From: Kineosporia corallincola
Lineage (GTDB): Bacteria; Actinomycetota; Actinomycetes; Actinomycetales; Kineosporiaceae
DNA length: 64,000 nt
Assembly (NCBI RefSeq): GCF_018499875.1
Contig: NZ_JAHBAY010000009.1
Span: forward strand, 248,001 to 312,000
Direction of reading: 5' to 3'
Below are positions 59,538-64,000 of this stretch, in pieces. Position 1 is the first letter of the stretch; every line of letters starts with the position of its first letter. The notes below the pieces were generated by a model. It was not told where the DNA came from and ran no database searches. It saw only the letters and a program-made list of their open reading frames with translations. A program made the position numbers and the translations under genes.

Positions 59538-59570
59538 GGTCACCGGCCGGGGCATACTCGGCCGGTGACC
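59538..59570 (+). promoter_or_regulatory. 12-bp hairpin overlapping the J-domain gene start
   Basis: GGTCACCGGCCG (59538-59549) and CGGCCGGTGACC (59559-59570) form a perfect stem with a 9-nt loop. The right arm contains the GTG start at 59565-59567. The loop includes CATACT (59553-59558), a -10 hexamer 6 nt before the start. The stem may terminate the upstream gene; a transcript beginning at the GTG would lack the left arm. Confidence 0.6.
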
Positions 59571-60266
59571 CCGGCACGTTTCCACGACCTCGCGGGCGGC
59601 AGTGCCTACCAGGTGCTCGGTGTGGCCGAGTCCGCCACACCCGGCGAGATCAACCGCGGCTACCGCCGCCGCATGCGGGCCCTGCACCCCGACACTCGTC
59701 CCAGGGGGTACGAAGAGGCCCAGGTGGTCTCCACCGCCCACCGCTGGCTGACCCACCACCGGCCGGACTACGACCGTTACGTGCGGGAACGGCGCCGCGG
59801 CGACCCGCGGTGGGGGAGGACGCCTGACCTCACCGCCGAGGCTGCCGGGACGACGGGAGAGCGCCGGCCCGGCTGGGCCCAGCCCCGGCGCGATGCTCAG
59901 CCCGGAGGTGGCGTTCAGCCCCGACGCGGCGCGCGGCTCCCGAGGCCGCCCGGCCTCGCCGACCGTGCCCGTCCTGCCCGTCCTGCCCGTCCTGGCCGTG
60001 CCAGTCGTGCCAGTCGTATCGGCCTGCCACGTCTGCCCCGGTTGGGCCTGCCACGTCCGCCTCGTCTGGGCCTTCCCGGTCCGCCTCGTCTGGGCCTTCC
60101 CAGAGCGCCCCGGCTGGGTCTTCCCGCCGTGCCACCGCTCGGGCTACCCCGGCTGCGGGTGCTGCCCCACCGCCGGGGCAGGCCGGGGCCGGGGCCCGGG
60201 CCGGTACTGCTGGCCCTGGTGGTCGTGGTCCTCGGGTTCCTGGCGGCTGCCCGGATCCCGTTCTGA
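59565..60266 (+). CDS. J-domain membrane protein with repetitive Pro/Leu/Arg linker
   Basis: A 233-residue protein. Residues about 11-70 are a DnaJ J-domain (AYQVLGVAESATPGEINRGY), with the HPD motif in RALHPDTRP that stimulates DnaK ATPase. The linker (about 115-210) is low-complexity with an 8-residue repeat (LPRPPRLG-like) from 24-bp tandem DNA units. A C-terminal membrane anchor (VLLALVVVVLGFLAAARI) ends the protein. It could recruit DnaK to the membrane. The GTG start lies inside a hairpin and 6 nt after a -10 hexamer. The repeat frame could be wrong beyond residue 100, since other frames are also open there. Confidence 0.65.
   Translation: MTPARFHDLAGGSAYQVLGVAESATPGEINRGYRRRMRALHPDTRPRGYEEAQVVSTAHRWLTHHRPDYDRYVRERRRGDPRWGRTPDLTAEAAGTTGERRPGWAQPRRDAQPGGGVQPRRGARLPRPPGLADRARPARPARPGRASRASRIGLPRLPRLGLPRPPRLGLPGPPRLGLPRAPRLGLPAVPPLGLPRLRVLPHRRGRPGPGPGPVLLALVVVVLGFLAAARIPF
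60021..60140 (+). repeat. 24-bp tandem repeat within the J-domain gene
   Basis: Five units of 24 bp begin GGCCT or GGTCT at 60021, 60045, 60069, 60093 and 60117, with increasing divergence. Just upstream (about 59965-59995) a 9-bp unit CCTGCCCGT is repeated three times. They encode the low-complexity linker. Confidence 0.75.
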
Positions 60267-60317: not shown

Positions 60318-60389
60318 GGGGGGACACCCTTTCGCGGTTTGACACCACCTTCCCGCCGAGGGTGGTGTCAAAATCCGCGAAGGGTCCCC
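60318..60389. repeat. Dispersed palindromic element, copy 2
   Basis: A nearly perfect palindrome of about 70 bp between two convergent gene ends. TTTGACACCACC (60338-60349) pairs with GGTGGTGTCAAA (60361-60372); outer arms CCCTTTCGCGG (60327-60337) and CCGCGAAGGG (60375-60384) pair with one bulge; GGGGACA and GTCCCC lie outside. It matches the element at 7282-7346 in core and flank order. It may be a REP-type repeat acting as a bidirectional terminator. Confidence 0.75.
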
Positions 60390-60417
60390 TCTACGCTGTG
60401 CCCACGGCCGTGATCGG

Positions 60418-62226
60418 TCATCCCGAACGATCTCTCCCGCGACCGCCGCTGGTCAGCACCGCCAGCACGACCAGCACCCCGGCGGGCCCGAGCACCAGCC
60501 AGGGCGCGGCACCGAGGTAGCCGACACCGGCGGCCAGCATCGCGCCGAGCTCGGGCTGGTCCGGGTCGGCGCCGAGCCCGAGGAAGCTGAGCCCGGCGAT
60601 GCCCAGCGCGGCCGCCGGCAGCCGCACCAGCGCGTGACGCAGCAACGGCCCGAGCACGGCGGGCAGCACGTGCACCCGCAGCAGCCGCCCGGGCCCGGCC
60701 CCGGCCAGCACCGCCGCGCGCACGTACCCGGCGCTGCGGACCTCCGACGCCAGCGTGCGGGCGTGCACGGCCAGCGGGATCCAGGCCACCAGCAGAACCG
60801 CCAGGCAGGCGCCGCGCAGTCCCGGCCCGAGAGCGGCCGCCACCAGCAGCCCGGCCAGGTTCGACGGCACGGTCGCGAGCACGTCCAGCGCCCCCGGCCC
60901 GGACATCGCCCCGCCCCGCCCGACATCCCCGCCCAGCCCGGCCGCCGTACCCACGAGCGCCCCCACGACCAGGGCCGCGACGCTGATCGCCGCGGCCAGC
61001 GACACGGTGAGCAGGGTGCCCTCGGCCAGGCGTCCCCACTGGTCGTGCCCCACCGCGTCCGCGCCCAGCGGATGCGCCGCGCCAGGGGCGGCGAGCCGCG
61101 CGGACAGGTCGGTGCCCGTGCCGTCGCGCAGCAGCCCGGCAGCGAGAACGGCCAGCAACAGCCCCGGCCCGAGGAACCCGGGCGGGGGAAGCCGGGGCTT
61201 TCGTCGTCCACCATCGACCCCGGCCCGACCCGCACCCAGGTGGGCCGGGGCACCCACCGTGCGCTCGGCGTCCGGAACCGCCAGCCCGCGGTGCACGGCG
61301 GCAGCCAGGGCCGCCGCCACCAGCCCGGTGACCACGAACCCGGCCAGCACCGCCTGCACCACGGGCAGGTCCTCGGCCAGCACCGCGTCGAGCGCGAGCG
61401 TGCCCGCGCCGGGGATCGAGAACACCTTCTCGACCGCCACCGACGACCCGACGATCGACATGCCCACCACCACGGCCTGCGGCGTCCCCACGGCCACCAC
61501 CCGGCGCAGCACCGCCCGCCGCATCGGGCGCAGGTCCAGCCCGGACGCCCGCCAGGCCCGCACCCAGGGCTCGGTCAGCGTCTGCTCCACCGTCGCCGAC
61601 AGCATGCGCGCCAGCAGCCCTCCGGCCGGCAGACCGAGCGCCAGGCCGGGCAGCACCCCGCTGGACACGCCGTTCCAGCCGAAAACCGGTAGCAGCCGCC
61701 AGGTCACGGCGAACAGCAGCACCCCGGCCACCGCCACCACCACCTCGGGCAGCGCCGCCAGCGCCGCGGGAACCTGCCCCGACAGCAACCGGGCCCACCG
61801 GGCCCGGACCGTGCGGCGGTCGCCGGCCCCGGACGTCCCCTGACGGATCGCCGGGGTCAGCAGCGACCCGGCGACCAGCACCGCGACCAGCAGAGCGGTG
61901 CCCGCCAGCGTCAGCGACGTGACCAGCGCCGGGCCGACCAGCCCGCCGACCGGCTGTCCGCTGACCCAGCCGGTGCCGAGGTCGCCGTGCAGGGCGTCCC
62001 GCACCCACGTCAGCACCCCGGCGAGCGGTGACGACGGAAGATCCAGCTCGCGGCGCAGCGCCGCGACGGCCTCCGGGTCGTCACCCCGCGCCCGGAAACG
62101 CACCCGCAGCACGGTGGCCGCCGGGTCCTCGCCCCGCAGCCAGGGCAGCGCCGCGACCGCGAGCAGCAGCGCCAGGAACGTGCCCCCGGTGCGCAGCGGG
62201 GTCCCCCACCACCGGTTGTGCCCCAC
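60418..62226 (-). CDS. Fused ABC permease of peptide/nickel type (DppB-DppC fusion)
   Basis: A 602-residue permease combining two normally separate subunits. The first half has LPSSPLAGVLTWVRDALHGD and PAALAALPEVVVAVAGVLLF, then ASGLDLRPMRRAVLRRVV and SIVGSSVAVEKVFSIPGAGT, a DppB-type EAA region. The second half begins after a linker (PDAERTVGAPAHLGAGRAGV) with HPLGADAVGHDQWGRLAEGT (DppC-type entry) and has RAAVLAGAGPGRLLRVHVLP and LPAAALGIAGLSFLGLGADP. GTG 62226 lies 18 nt after the binding-protein stop; the longer form from 62289 is possible. Control by the upstream riboswitch suggests transport of cobalt or a corrinoid precursor. No ATPase gene follows. Confidence 0.85.
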   Translation of the reverse strand: MGHNRWWGTPLRTGGTFLALLLAVAALPWLRGEDPAATVLRVRFRARGDDPEAVAALRRELDLPSSPLAGVLTWVRDALHGDLGTGWVSGQPVGGLVGPALVTSLTLAGTALLVAVLVAGSLLTPAIRQGTSGAGDRRTVRARWARLLSGQVPAALAALPEVVVAVAGVLLFAVTWRLLPVFGWNGVSSGVLPGLALGLPAGGLLARMLSATVEQTLTEPWVRAWRASGLDLRPMRRAVLRRVVAVGTPQAVVVGMSIVGSSVAVEKVFSIPGAGTLALDAVLAEDLPVVQAVLAGFVVTGLVAAALAAAVHRGLAVPDAERTVGAPAHLGAGRAGVDGGRRKPRLPPPGFLGPGLLLAVLAAGLLRDGTGTDLSARLAAPGAAHPLGADAVGHDQWGRLAEGTLLTVSLAAAISVAALVVGALVGTAAGLGGDVGRGGAMSGPGALDVLATVPSNLAGLLVAAALGPGLRGACLAVLLVAWIPLAVHARTLASEVRSAGYVRAAVLAGAGPGRLLRVHVLPAVLGPLLRHALVRLPAAALGIAGLSFLGLGADPDQPELGAMLAAGVGYLGAAPWLVLGPAGVLVVLAVLTSGGRGRDRSG

Positions 62227-62243
62227 CGTCAGAAACCCGGAAA

Positions 62244-63743
62244 TCAGTCGCCCAGCGTGGTTTCCGCCGTGACGACCGCCCGCTCCCACGGGTCCCGGGC
62301 CAGCCCCGACACCCCGTCGGCCAGGCCGAACTGGGTGCGGTCGTGCACCAGCGGGATCACCGCGACGGCGGAGAGCACCTCGTGCTCGGCGGCCACGGCG
62401 GCCTGGTTCCGGGCGTCCACGCCGGCCTGCCGCGCGGCGTCGGCCAGCTCGGAGTCGAGGTCCTCGTCGCAGTACCGGCTGATGTTGTAGCCGCCGTCGC
62501 AGCCGAAGTCGGATTGCAGGTAGCTGATCGGGTCGGCGGTGTCCTGCCCGTACGACCGGCTCATGATCACCGCGTCGTAGGTGCCGTCGAGGAAGTCCTT
62601 CTCCATCTGGTTGTACTCGCGCACCACCGTCTTCATCGTGAAACCGGCCTTGCGCCAGCGATCGGCCACCACGGCGGCGATCTCGGCCATCTCCGGCCGG
62701 TCGCTGAACGTGGCCAGGGTGATCTGCCGGTCCTGCGGGGTGGTGGCCTGCGGGTAGTCGGCGGCCGGGCGGTCGTCCGCCCAGGTCGACACCGAGGAGA
62801 ACAGCCCCTTCGCCGGGTCGGCCGCGCCGGCGTAGACGGTGCCGGCCAGGTCGAGGTCCTGCACGGCCTCCCGGGCGGCCTCGCGCTGTCCGGCGTCGCG
62901 GAACACGGCCGAGCTCTGGGTCAGGTGGATCGACACGGTGCGTGGCAGCGGCACGGCCAGCACGTGGTCGGCGCCGACCTGGCTCAGCTGGTCGGCGGGC
63001 AGGGCCTGCGCCACGTCGGTCTGCCCGGCCCGCAGCGCGGACGCCCGCTGGTCGCCGTCCGCAACGAAGCTCAGCTCGATCCCGGCCAGCGCCGGTCTGC
63101 CGCCCCAGTAGCCGTCGTTCGCGGTCAGGTCGGCCGACGTGGTGCCGTTCAGCCGGGTGATCGTGTACGGCCCGGTGCCGGTCCCGATCACCGACGGCGC
63201 CGCCGCGTCGTCCTCGTACGCCTTGGCCGACAGCACGGCCAGTTCCGGTGAGGTCAGCCGCTGCACGAGCACCGGGTCCGCGGTGCCGGTGACGATCCGC
63301 ACCGTGTCGTCACCCTCCGCCGTCACGGTCAGCTCGGTGCCGGACAGCGCGCGCGGCGCCGGGTCGGCCTGCGCCGCGTGGGTGAGCGACCCGGCCACCG
63401 CCTCGGCGTCCATCGGTGTGCCGTCCTGGAACGTGACGCCCTCGCGCAGGGTGAGTTCCCAGGTCGTGGCGTCGGTCCGGGTCCAGGAGGTGGCCAGCGA
63501 GGGCTCCGGGGCGCCGGAGGCGTCGAGCCTGGCCAGTGTCTCGGTCGCGCCCACCCCGTAGCTGGTCACCGCATCGTCGCTGTACGGCGAGAGCGCCGCG
63601 ACCGGGGTGAACGCGTACGCGTACCGCAGCGTGCGCCGTTCGCCGGAGGCGGTGCCGCCGGAGCTTCCGCAGGCGGCCAGGGACAGGGAGAGGACGACGG
63701 CCGCCGCGACCGCGGACGACCTCAGAACACGCGCATGGCCCAT
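62244..63743 (-). CDS. Family 5 ABC substrate-binding lipoprotein (riboswitch-controlled)
   Basis: A 499-residue extracellular binding protein of the peptide/nickel group. A signal peptide with lipobox SLAACG (about residues 21-26) is followed by YSDDAVTSYGVGATETLARL, LREGVTFQDGTPMDAEAVAG and SYGQDTADPISYLQSDFGCD. Cysteines in FGCDGGYNISRYC may form a disulfide. ATG 63743 has ggagg 11 nt upstream; GTG 63770 (in frame, within gaggtgctgg) is possible. It lies directly downstream of a cobalamin riboswitch, so it is expected to be produced when B12 is low and to capture cobalt or a corrinoid. Confidence 0.9.
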   Translation of the reverse strand: MGHARVLRSSAVAAAVVLSLSLAACGSSGGTASGERRTLRYAYAFTPVAALSPYSDDAVTSYGVGATETLARLDASGAPEPSLATSWTRTDATTWELTLREGVTFQDGTPMDAEAVAGSLTHAAQADPAPRALSGTELTVTAEGDDTVRIVTGTADPVLVQRLTSPELAVLSAKAYEDDAAAPSVIGTGTGPYTITRLNGTTSADLTANDGYWGGRPALAGIELSFVADGDQRASALRAGQTDVAQALPADQLSQVGADHVLAVPLPRTVSIHLTQSSAVFRDAGQREAAREAVQDLDLAGTVYAGAADPAKGLFSSVSTWADDRPAADYPQATTPQDRQITLATFSDRPEMAEIAAVVADRWRKAGFTMKTVVREYNQMEKDFLDGTYDAVIMSRSYGQDTADPISYLQSDFGCDGGYNISRYCDEDLDSELADAARQAGVDARNQAAVAAEHEVLSAVAVIPLVHDRTQFGLADGVSGLARDPWERAVVTAETTLGD

Positions 63744-63784
63744 GGAACGGACCGCCTCCAGCACCTCGTGGTTGCGAAACGGTG

Positions 63785-63960
63785 CCGTGGCCGGTCTCCT
63801 GGCTCCCGGGTGCAGGGGGTGGCCCCAGCGCTGCCGGCGCACCTTCCCAGGCGGAGGACCACCCAGTGGCGCCCGGTTGCGGACTACGCGAACCGGCAGC
63901 TTCCCGATCACAGTGGCGAGGGCCGCTCCGGTCTCGCACCGGAATTCCCGAACACCACGG
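63785..63960 (-). ncRNA. Cobalamin riboswitch
   Basis: Read on the minus strand, the conserved cobalamin aptamer parts appear in order: CCGGTGCGAGACCGGAGC (63949-63925 region), GCCACTGTGA (63917-63908), GGGAAGCTG (63905-63897), a second GCCACTGGG (63870-63862), CTGGGAAGG (63851-63843), and the B12 box AGCCAGGAGACC (63804-63793). It lies 42-50 nt upstream of the binding-protein start. Cobalamin binding should switch the operon off, most likely by hiding the ribosome site. Confidence 0.93.
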
Positions 63961-64000
63961 CCCGGTCAACGTACCCCACGTTCCGCCCGGAGTGGTGGGC

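Follow-up and report, generated by a model that had tools for sequence, protein, structure and literature searches.

The window analysed here is a 64,000-nucleotide (64-kb) stretch of the draft genome of the soil actinobacterium Kineosporia corallincola (C9:248001-312000; genome of 8.2 Mb in 53 contigs, 97.0% complete). On its minus strand lies an operon that runs from a cobalamin riboswitch through a gene for a NikA-like binding protein to a gene for a fused NikB-NikC-type permease, and it ends at position 60418. No ATPase gene adjoins this operon on either side, in the window or in the flanking sequence. An earlier, sequence-only reading of this DNA had placed the operon correctly to within 14 bases or fewer. 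The features of the operon are as follows.

63772..63974, minus strand: cobalamin riboswitch aptamer (RF00174, 72.4 bits against a gathering score of 31.5, E 6.7e-16, model positions 1-189 of 189)
63932..63938, minus strand: loop L5, predicted to form a kissing pair with L13 (in the window 7 of 7 positions pair)
63759..63787, minus strand: expression-platform hairpin P13/L13 (stem 63787-63782 with 63764-63759, loop L13 63779-63773)
63755..63759, minus strand: Shine-Dalgarno-like GGAGG abutting P13 (by reading the sequence)
62244..63743, minus strand: NikA-like solute-binding lipoprotein of 499 amino acids (SBP_bac_5, E 1.3e-56; LAAC lipobox at residues 22-25)
60418..62226, minus strand: fused NikB-NikC-type permease of 602 amino acids (profile matches; probable GTG start proposed)
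61477..61572, minus strand: EAA/coupling loop of the NikB half (residues 219-250; alignments and generic-likeness test)
60655..60729, minus strand: EAA/coupling loop of the NikC half (residues 500-524; alignments)

The importer anatomy claimed by that reading, a binding protein and one chain with both permease halves, is borne out by profile matches. In the numbering of a 617-residue translation, residues 33-327 of a single open frame hold the matches to the best NikB-type models and residues 372-607 those to the best NikC-type ones, and only about 20 bases separate the stop of the binding-protein gene (62244) from the probable GTG start of the permease (62226). The same arrangement of riboswitch, binding protein and fused permease without a nearby ATPase occurs in 6 of 6 Kineosporia loci, so the claim that the operon has no ATPase gene holds in all six genomes; one of these genomes (G003) is a single contig, and the gap beside the operon is thus not an assembly artefact. 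Identity to the five other Kineosporia genomes is 77-80% for the permease and 76-81% for the binding protein, and pairwise ratios of nonsynonymous to synonymous substitution (dN/dS; NG86, 15 pairs each) are 0.17-0.28 and 0.29-0.45, respectively. The operon is under purifying selection.

The B12 riboswitch that had been proposed ahead of the operon is a full-length match to RF00174, and nothing else in the window reaches an Rfam gathering score. RF00174 also precedes the same binding-protein gene in the other five Kineosporia, scoring 70.5-89.7 bits, and the six leaders align well. A kissing loop between L5 and L13 beside the ribosome-binding site is a feature of cobalamin riboswitches, and the names P13 and L13 are those of the btuB-type architecture. 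The L5-L13 pairing is kept at 6 of 7 pairs in each of the other five Kineosporia, all six pairs of the P13 stem are invariant across the six sequences, and the Shine-Dalgarno-like element reads GGAAGG in one of them (L094). In the predicted kissing and platform structure 95% of cells are paired, against 29-46% when the structure is slid along the alignment; shuffles were uninformative. Translational repression by adenosylcobalamin is the expected mode of control.

The K. corallincola genome has seven RF00174 matches, six of them above the cut-off. The other above-cut-off riboswitches precede genes for class Ib ribonucleotide reductase, metE, cbiM-cbiN, cobN and nrdD (genes by Pfam), and the one below the cut-off precedes a cob gene set (assigned by eye); the operon therefore shares its B12 control with known B12-repressed genes. 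For the five other Kineosporia genomes, 34 RF00174 matches were listed and 30 examined as loci, taking the best frame of either strand. These precede this binding protein (5), nrd genes (5), metE (4), cbiM (4), cobN (4) and the cob set (3); the remainder comprises two BtuC-like permeases recognised by eye (L179 in G001 and L187 in G004), one cbtA (L205, G002:C36; by Pfam, behind a below-cut-off riboswitch match) and two undecided loci (L192 and L200). Cobalt and corrinoid import may thus vary among Kineosporia species.

Relatives of the system were collected in two ways. A permease search covered 58 relatives including K. corallincola, 11 of which match at E ≤ 1e-40, and a binding-protein search covered 394 genomes of the class, 31 of which match at E ≤ 1e-100 in 34 places. 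The set of 43 loci used below consists of 32 of those 34 places (leaving aside the window and G044, which is L097), L091-L100 and the window; a scan of genome contigs gave five loci, three of which are Kineosporia already found by the genome search. Fused permeases had been called uncommon, and in this actinobacterial subfamily the opposite is true: a single frame spans both permease halves in 39 of the 43 loci (window included), two have separate genes (L161 and L175), and two have no permease match (L176 and L166, the latter a lone binding-protein gene).

Among the 33 fused loci outside Kineosporia an ATPase pair adjoins the system in 20, none is present in 12 (L156, L159, L160, L165 and L167-L174), and one lies at a contig edge (L098). 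The pair is upstream in 12 loci (L096, L097, L099, L100, L143-L146, L150, L154, L155 and L158) and downstream in eight (L142, L147-L149, L151-L153 and L157). On the binding-protein tree the presence or absence of the pair requires at least three changes, namely in Kineosporia, in a clade of 12 rows all from the genus g59 (eleven ATPase-less fused loci and L166), and in L156. Kineosporia joins the ATPase-equipped L096, L097 and L158 (99%), with L096 and L158 on long branches. Since the separate-gene outgroups L161 and L175 possess ATPases, loss of the pair appears to be favoured over gain.

The ATPases that do accompany these permeases are of two kinds. A tree of 40 such dedicated ATPases, 34 Opp-type ATPases (all 17 pairs) of K. 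corallincola and 42 further ATPases of that genome places the dedicated ones in four clades of 12, 12, 8 and 8 rows (support 95, 92, 99 and 99), with no K. corallincola row inside them. The 12-row clades are the upstream-type pair and the 8-row clades the downstream-type pair; two unrelated ATPase pairs thus serve one fused-permease subfamily, which suggests a swap of the pair. In an earlier ATPase tree three D-type dedicated ATPases and some of those of K. corallincola were unresolved at the base.

Coupling loops are known ATPase contacts (see PMC7658222), and the two loops of the fused permease, selected beforehand, were scored by their mean BLOSUM62 similarity to the loops of 12 generic K. 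corallincola Opp permeases. The NikB-half loop scores 0.97-1.20 in the six Kineosporia and 0.69-1.06 in the 11 ATPase-less loci of g59, compared with 0.16-0.75 in the ATPase-equipped loci (19 of 20; L155 gave no match, and some loops contain gaps). For the NikC-half loop the ranges are 1.43-1.50 in Kineosporia, 1.02-1.33 in g59, 1.63 in L156 and 0.61-1.65 in the ATPase-equipped loci (18 of 20); they overlap, so this score does not separate the groups. When the excess over ATPase-equipped relatives is followed by sliding comparison along the NikB-half alignment, in which the loop starts at 203, the peak lies at 200 for Kineosporia against L096, L097 and L158 (three residues before the loop start) and at 201 for the 11 g59 loci against all (two residues before it), where the loop-start window ranks 3 of 269. 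Convergence of the NikC loop in the g59 clade was also considered and is unsupported, its window ranking 155 of 196. One of the two loops thus supports adaptation to generic ATPases, as judged from these alignments, in two of the three ATPase-less lineages.

Taken together, we think it probable that the operon encodes an importer of the Nik type which B12 represses, whose substrate is probably a chelate of cobalt, and which works with ATPases borrowed from resident Opp/Dpp systems after losing its own. The operon would supply the substrate-specific half of an ABC (ATP-binding cassette) importer of the nickel/peptide family, that is, a NikA-like lipoprotein receptor and a fused NikBC permease. 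When adenosylcobalamin is plentiful the L5-L13 kissing loop would close beside the ribosome-binding site and repress translation, and when B12 is short both proteins would be made. On the simplest course, an ancestor with a dedicated NikD/NikE-like pair would have lost that pair, and the coupling loop of the NikB half would have shifted toward the common Opp/Dpp type, letting the ATPases of resident Opp/Dpp importers dock. The cobalt chelate would then be imported for B12 synthesis, alongside CbiMNQO.

Several observations weigh against this picture. A riboswitch-controlled CbiMN-type cobalt importer gene set is already present in the genome. No covariation was seen in the riboswitch platform, where no pair is altered on both sides among the six Kineosporia sequences. 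Outside Kineosporia RF00174 precedes the system in none of 37 loci (L098 is cut off upstream), so cobalt is not implied for the whole family; the single RF00174 match in those loci (L167) lies ahead of cbiMNQO, about 2 kb past a major facilitator superfamily (MFS) gene. L156, the third ATPase-less lineage, has the second-least generic NikB loop (0.21). In the sliding comparison the NikB loop-start window of Kineosporia ranks 16 of 269 against its nearest relatives; against all, it ranks 28 of 269 and the peak falls at 189, 14 residues upstream. For the NikC loop window of Kineosporia the ranks are 12 of 197 (nearest) and 37 of 197 (all); that of g59 comes at 155 of 196. Finally, the K. corallincola genome is a 53-contig draft, 97% complete.

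A broader proposal, which we advance tentatively, is that in this subfamily the ATPase pair is an exchangeable or dispensable module. ATPase-equipped relatives have one or the other of two unrelated pairs, upstream or downstream; three lineages would have dropped the pair and use ordinary two-subunit Opp/Dpp ATPases, with convergence of the NikB loop in at least two of them, and Kineosporia would have put the substrate-specific half alone under B12 control.

The nature of the substrate is the part of the preferred explanation with the strongest competitor. The best NCBIfam model for the binding protein is NikA (Opp5A), with 182.5 bits and the cut-off of 600 missed; the equivalog cut-offs are missed by the permease models as well (Opp2C, 136.7 of 300; Opp1B, 125.9 of 380). 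By profile search the protein is closest to the nickel-binding proteins of Bacillus halodurans and, second, Staphylococcus aureus. Its structure model (pLDDT 81.6) has as best fold match 3rqt, a Staphylococcus binding protein, followed by 4xkr, SaNikA with a nickel-histidine-thiazolidine chelate (TM 0.76, 20% identity); peptide, haem and opine binders rank shortly behind these two. From the nickel-type matches and the B12 control, our best guess is that the likeliest substrate would be chelated cobalt, with a ligand such as histidine or a metallophore. Import of nickel, of a corrinoid or its precursor, or of a metallophore of peptide-like kind instead seems rather unlikely to us: family-5 binding proteins do accept many ligands, and K. 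corallincola already serves cobalt with its own B12-controlled importer, but cobalt or corrinoids match the B12 control better than nickel does, and by profile as well as by fold the top matches bind nickel rather than corrinoids. Corrinoid uptake normally proceeds via the unrelated BtuCDF type. The metallophore variant draws on MdtH-like MFS genes, which lie close to many relatives and whose products might export a metallophore for the ABC system to take back in.

Such a gene lies close to those for the binding protein and the fused permease in L097, L099, L142-L147, L149-L151, L153 and L155-L159, and likewise near the system in L165, L167, L168, L170 and L172-L174 (the MFS family being named for L097 and L170). 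It had no match in the five Kineosporia loci examined.

A different possibility is that one dedicated ATPase pair is encoded elsewhere and has diverged too far for recognition. Percent identity was tried as a test for a dedicated ATPase and set aside in favour of trees, as it is indecisive: the dedicated pairs are about 40-53% identical to one another, no closer than to generic K. corallincola ATPases, and identity alone therefore does not count against a hidden pair. The genomic survey argues in the other direction. K. corallincola has 17 Opp-type ATPase loci, 14 found via PF08352 and three via coinciding ATPase and permease matches (C11, C5:289-291 and C22), and all 17 adjoin permeases (16 with at least one permease match on inspection, C13 by coordinates). 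Because three of the 17 had been recognised through their neighbours, the remaining ATPase matches of the genome were examined down to E 1e-22, yielding the 42 further ATPases from 39 loci; these form one group apart from the Opp-type (99%), and the 35 loci newly examined among them have no binding-protein or permease match. Nor does an Opp-type ATPase lie behind a riboswitch in any of the seven K. corallincola loci or the 30 of 34 loci inspected in other Kineosporia, two of the latter being undecided. The tree and these neighbourhoods lead us to regard a hidden pair as improbable.

The same survey bears on where the sequence-only reading expected the missing subunits, namely in an orphan DppD/DppF or in an ATPase with its own B12 riboswitch. 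The former was not found, given that every Opp-type ATPase locus of K. corallincola adjoins permeases, and the latter was not found at the inspected riboswitch loci of the six Kineosporia genomes. Its more general idea of a borrowed ATPase fares better and has indirect support. In K. corallincola no ATPase is linked to the operon and no orphan one is recognisable; the donor would be a resident Opp/Dpp system. A candidate donor, on sequence grounds, is the OppF at C6:155244 of K. corallincola, which is 93-94% identical in all six Kineosporia genomes. We also note that at L103 (G000:C22:51000-63000) an Opp/Nik-like importer with a double ATPase stands next to two genes resembling ABC exporters and to a thioesterase-like frame (by eye); the locus looks like part of a metallophore cluster.

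The two proteins might also act as a scavenger, sensor or facilitator that needs no ATP hydrolysis. CbiMN and BioY can work without their ATPases, and the absence of an ATPase, the persistence of the lineage and the lone binding-protein copy in L166 would fit such a role. Both EAA loops, however, retain the conserved glycine, and within Kineosporia their conservation (0.86 and 0.82) matches that of the remaining protein (0.82), which argues for ATPase docking and makes ATP-free working quite improbable. Decay of a once complete operon, which the missing ATPases would fit, is very improbable, with the same riboswitch and two-gene operon in 6 of 6 genomes, open frames and dN/dS well below 1.

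With borrowing of resident ATPases as the preferred explanation, the operon can be set beside known systems. The SaNikA/Opp5A nickel importer, a five-gene system, supplies the second-best profile and fold match of the binding protein; the two are only 20% identical in the fold alignment, and the Opp5A cut-off is missed. CbiMNQO, an energy-coupling factor cobalt importer, is likewise B12-controlled, with cbiM and cbiN behind another riboswitch of K. corallincola, but its architecture is unrelated and it has no soluble binding protein. NikABCDE of Clostridium tetani and Desulfitobacterium hafniense is preceded by a B12 riboswitch (PMC2667541) and so shares with our operon a Nik-type ABC importer behind such an element; as summarised there, these systems are separated from the nickel-specific ones and belong to the five-subunit NikABCDE family, whereas the K. 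corallincola operon has one fused permease and neither of the ATPases. CbtJKL of Sinorhizobium meliloti is a cobalt ABC importer under an adenosylcobalamin riboswitch; it shares riboswitch control and a binding protein with the K. corallincola operon and differs in having a BtuF-like binding protein and a conventional complete ABC importer (PMC7689651).

Sharing of ATPases has precedents. MsmX and MsmK are shared ("multitask") ATPases of sugar importers (PMC7658222), and FhuC energises IsdF (PMC10147376). In these systems, as outlined in those papers, an ATPase-less permease is driven by an ATPase from another locus, and the K. corallincola operon is likewise ATPase-less with its coupling loops kept. 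The precedents involve sugar- or siderophore-type ATPases, whereas K. corallincola would share an Opp/Nik-type pair of two different ATPases; the orphan ATPase gene that marks sharing of the MsmX and FhuC kind was not found among its 17 Opp-type loci, all of which stand beside permeases, and the 42 further ATPases are of other kinds. In the literature searched by title and start of abstract, nothing turned up on ATPase-less Nik/Opp operons, papers on fused oligopeptide permeases dealt with other matters, and no publication combined Kineosporia and cobalamin. ATPase sharing (PMC7658222, PMC10147376) and Nik systems behind B12 riboswitches (PMC2667541) are thus already known; what remains of interest is that the ATPase pair of a metal-type importer subfamily is repeatedly missing or exchanged, and that a half-system lacking ATPases is under B12 control.

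Beyond the operon, two further features of the window were recorded.

60328..60400, minus strand: strong inverted repeat, candidate terminator (-35.7 kcal/mol, z -4.4, 0 of 200 shuffles equally stable)
59565-60266, convergent to the operon: DnaJ-domain gene (domain match)

The inverted repeat sits at the operon end between the convergent genes and agrees with the palindrome proposed there as a strong hairpin; no T tract was found. The DnaJ-domain protein has a C-terminal low-complexity proline/leucine/arginine stretch followed by a terminal hydrophobic segment. Upstream, past the window edge, the next same-strand gene encodes alanine dehydrogenase. In the ATPase-less locus L170 (7162-8845) the binding protein is preceded by genes for a GNAT acetyltransferase and, in divergent orientation, a ParA/CooC-like ATPase, and similar genes were seen by eye in L168 (8915-9457) and L166 (7910-8869). 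A plasmid search with the fused permease found no place covering 80% of the query; on Klebsiella plasmids, two pieces that share one "ABC transporter permease subunit" annotation match both halves (41% identity over 59% of the query), and this is possibly another fused permease.

If our reading is true, it would be a case of ATPase sharing in the Nik/Opp family in which two different ATPases are shared, and rules that call an importer incomplete without its ATPases would miss working metal importers. The subfamily, with its members bearing one pair, the other pair or none, would form a natural set for finding the coupling-loop residues that decide ATPase choice. For K. corallincola itself, the operon adds a second B12-controlled candidate route for cobalt beside CbiMNQO.

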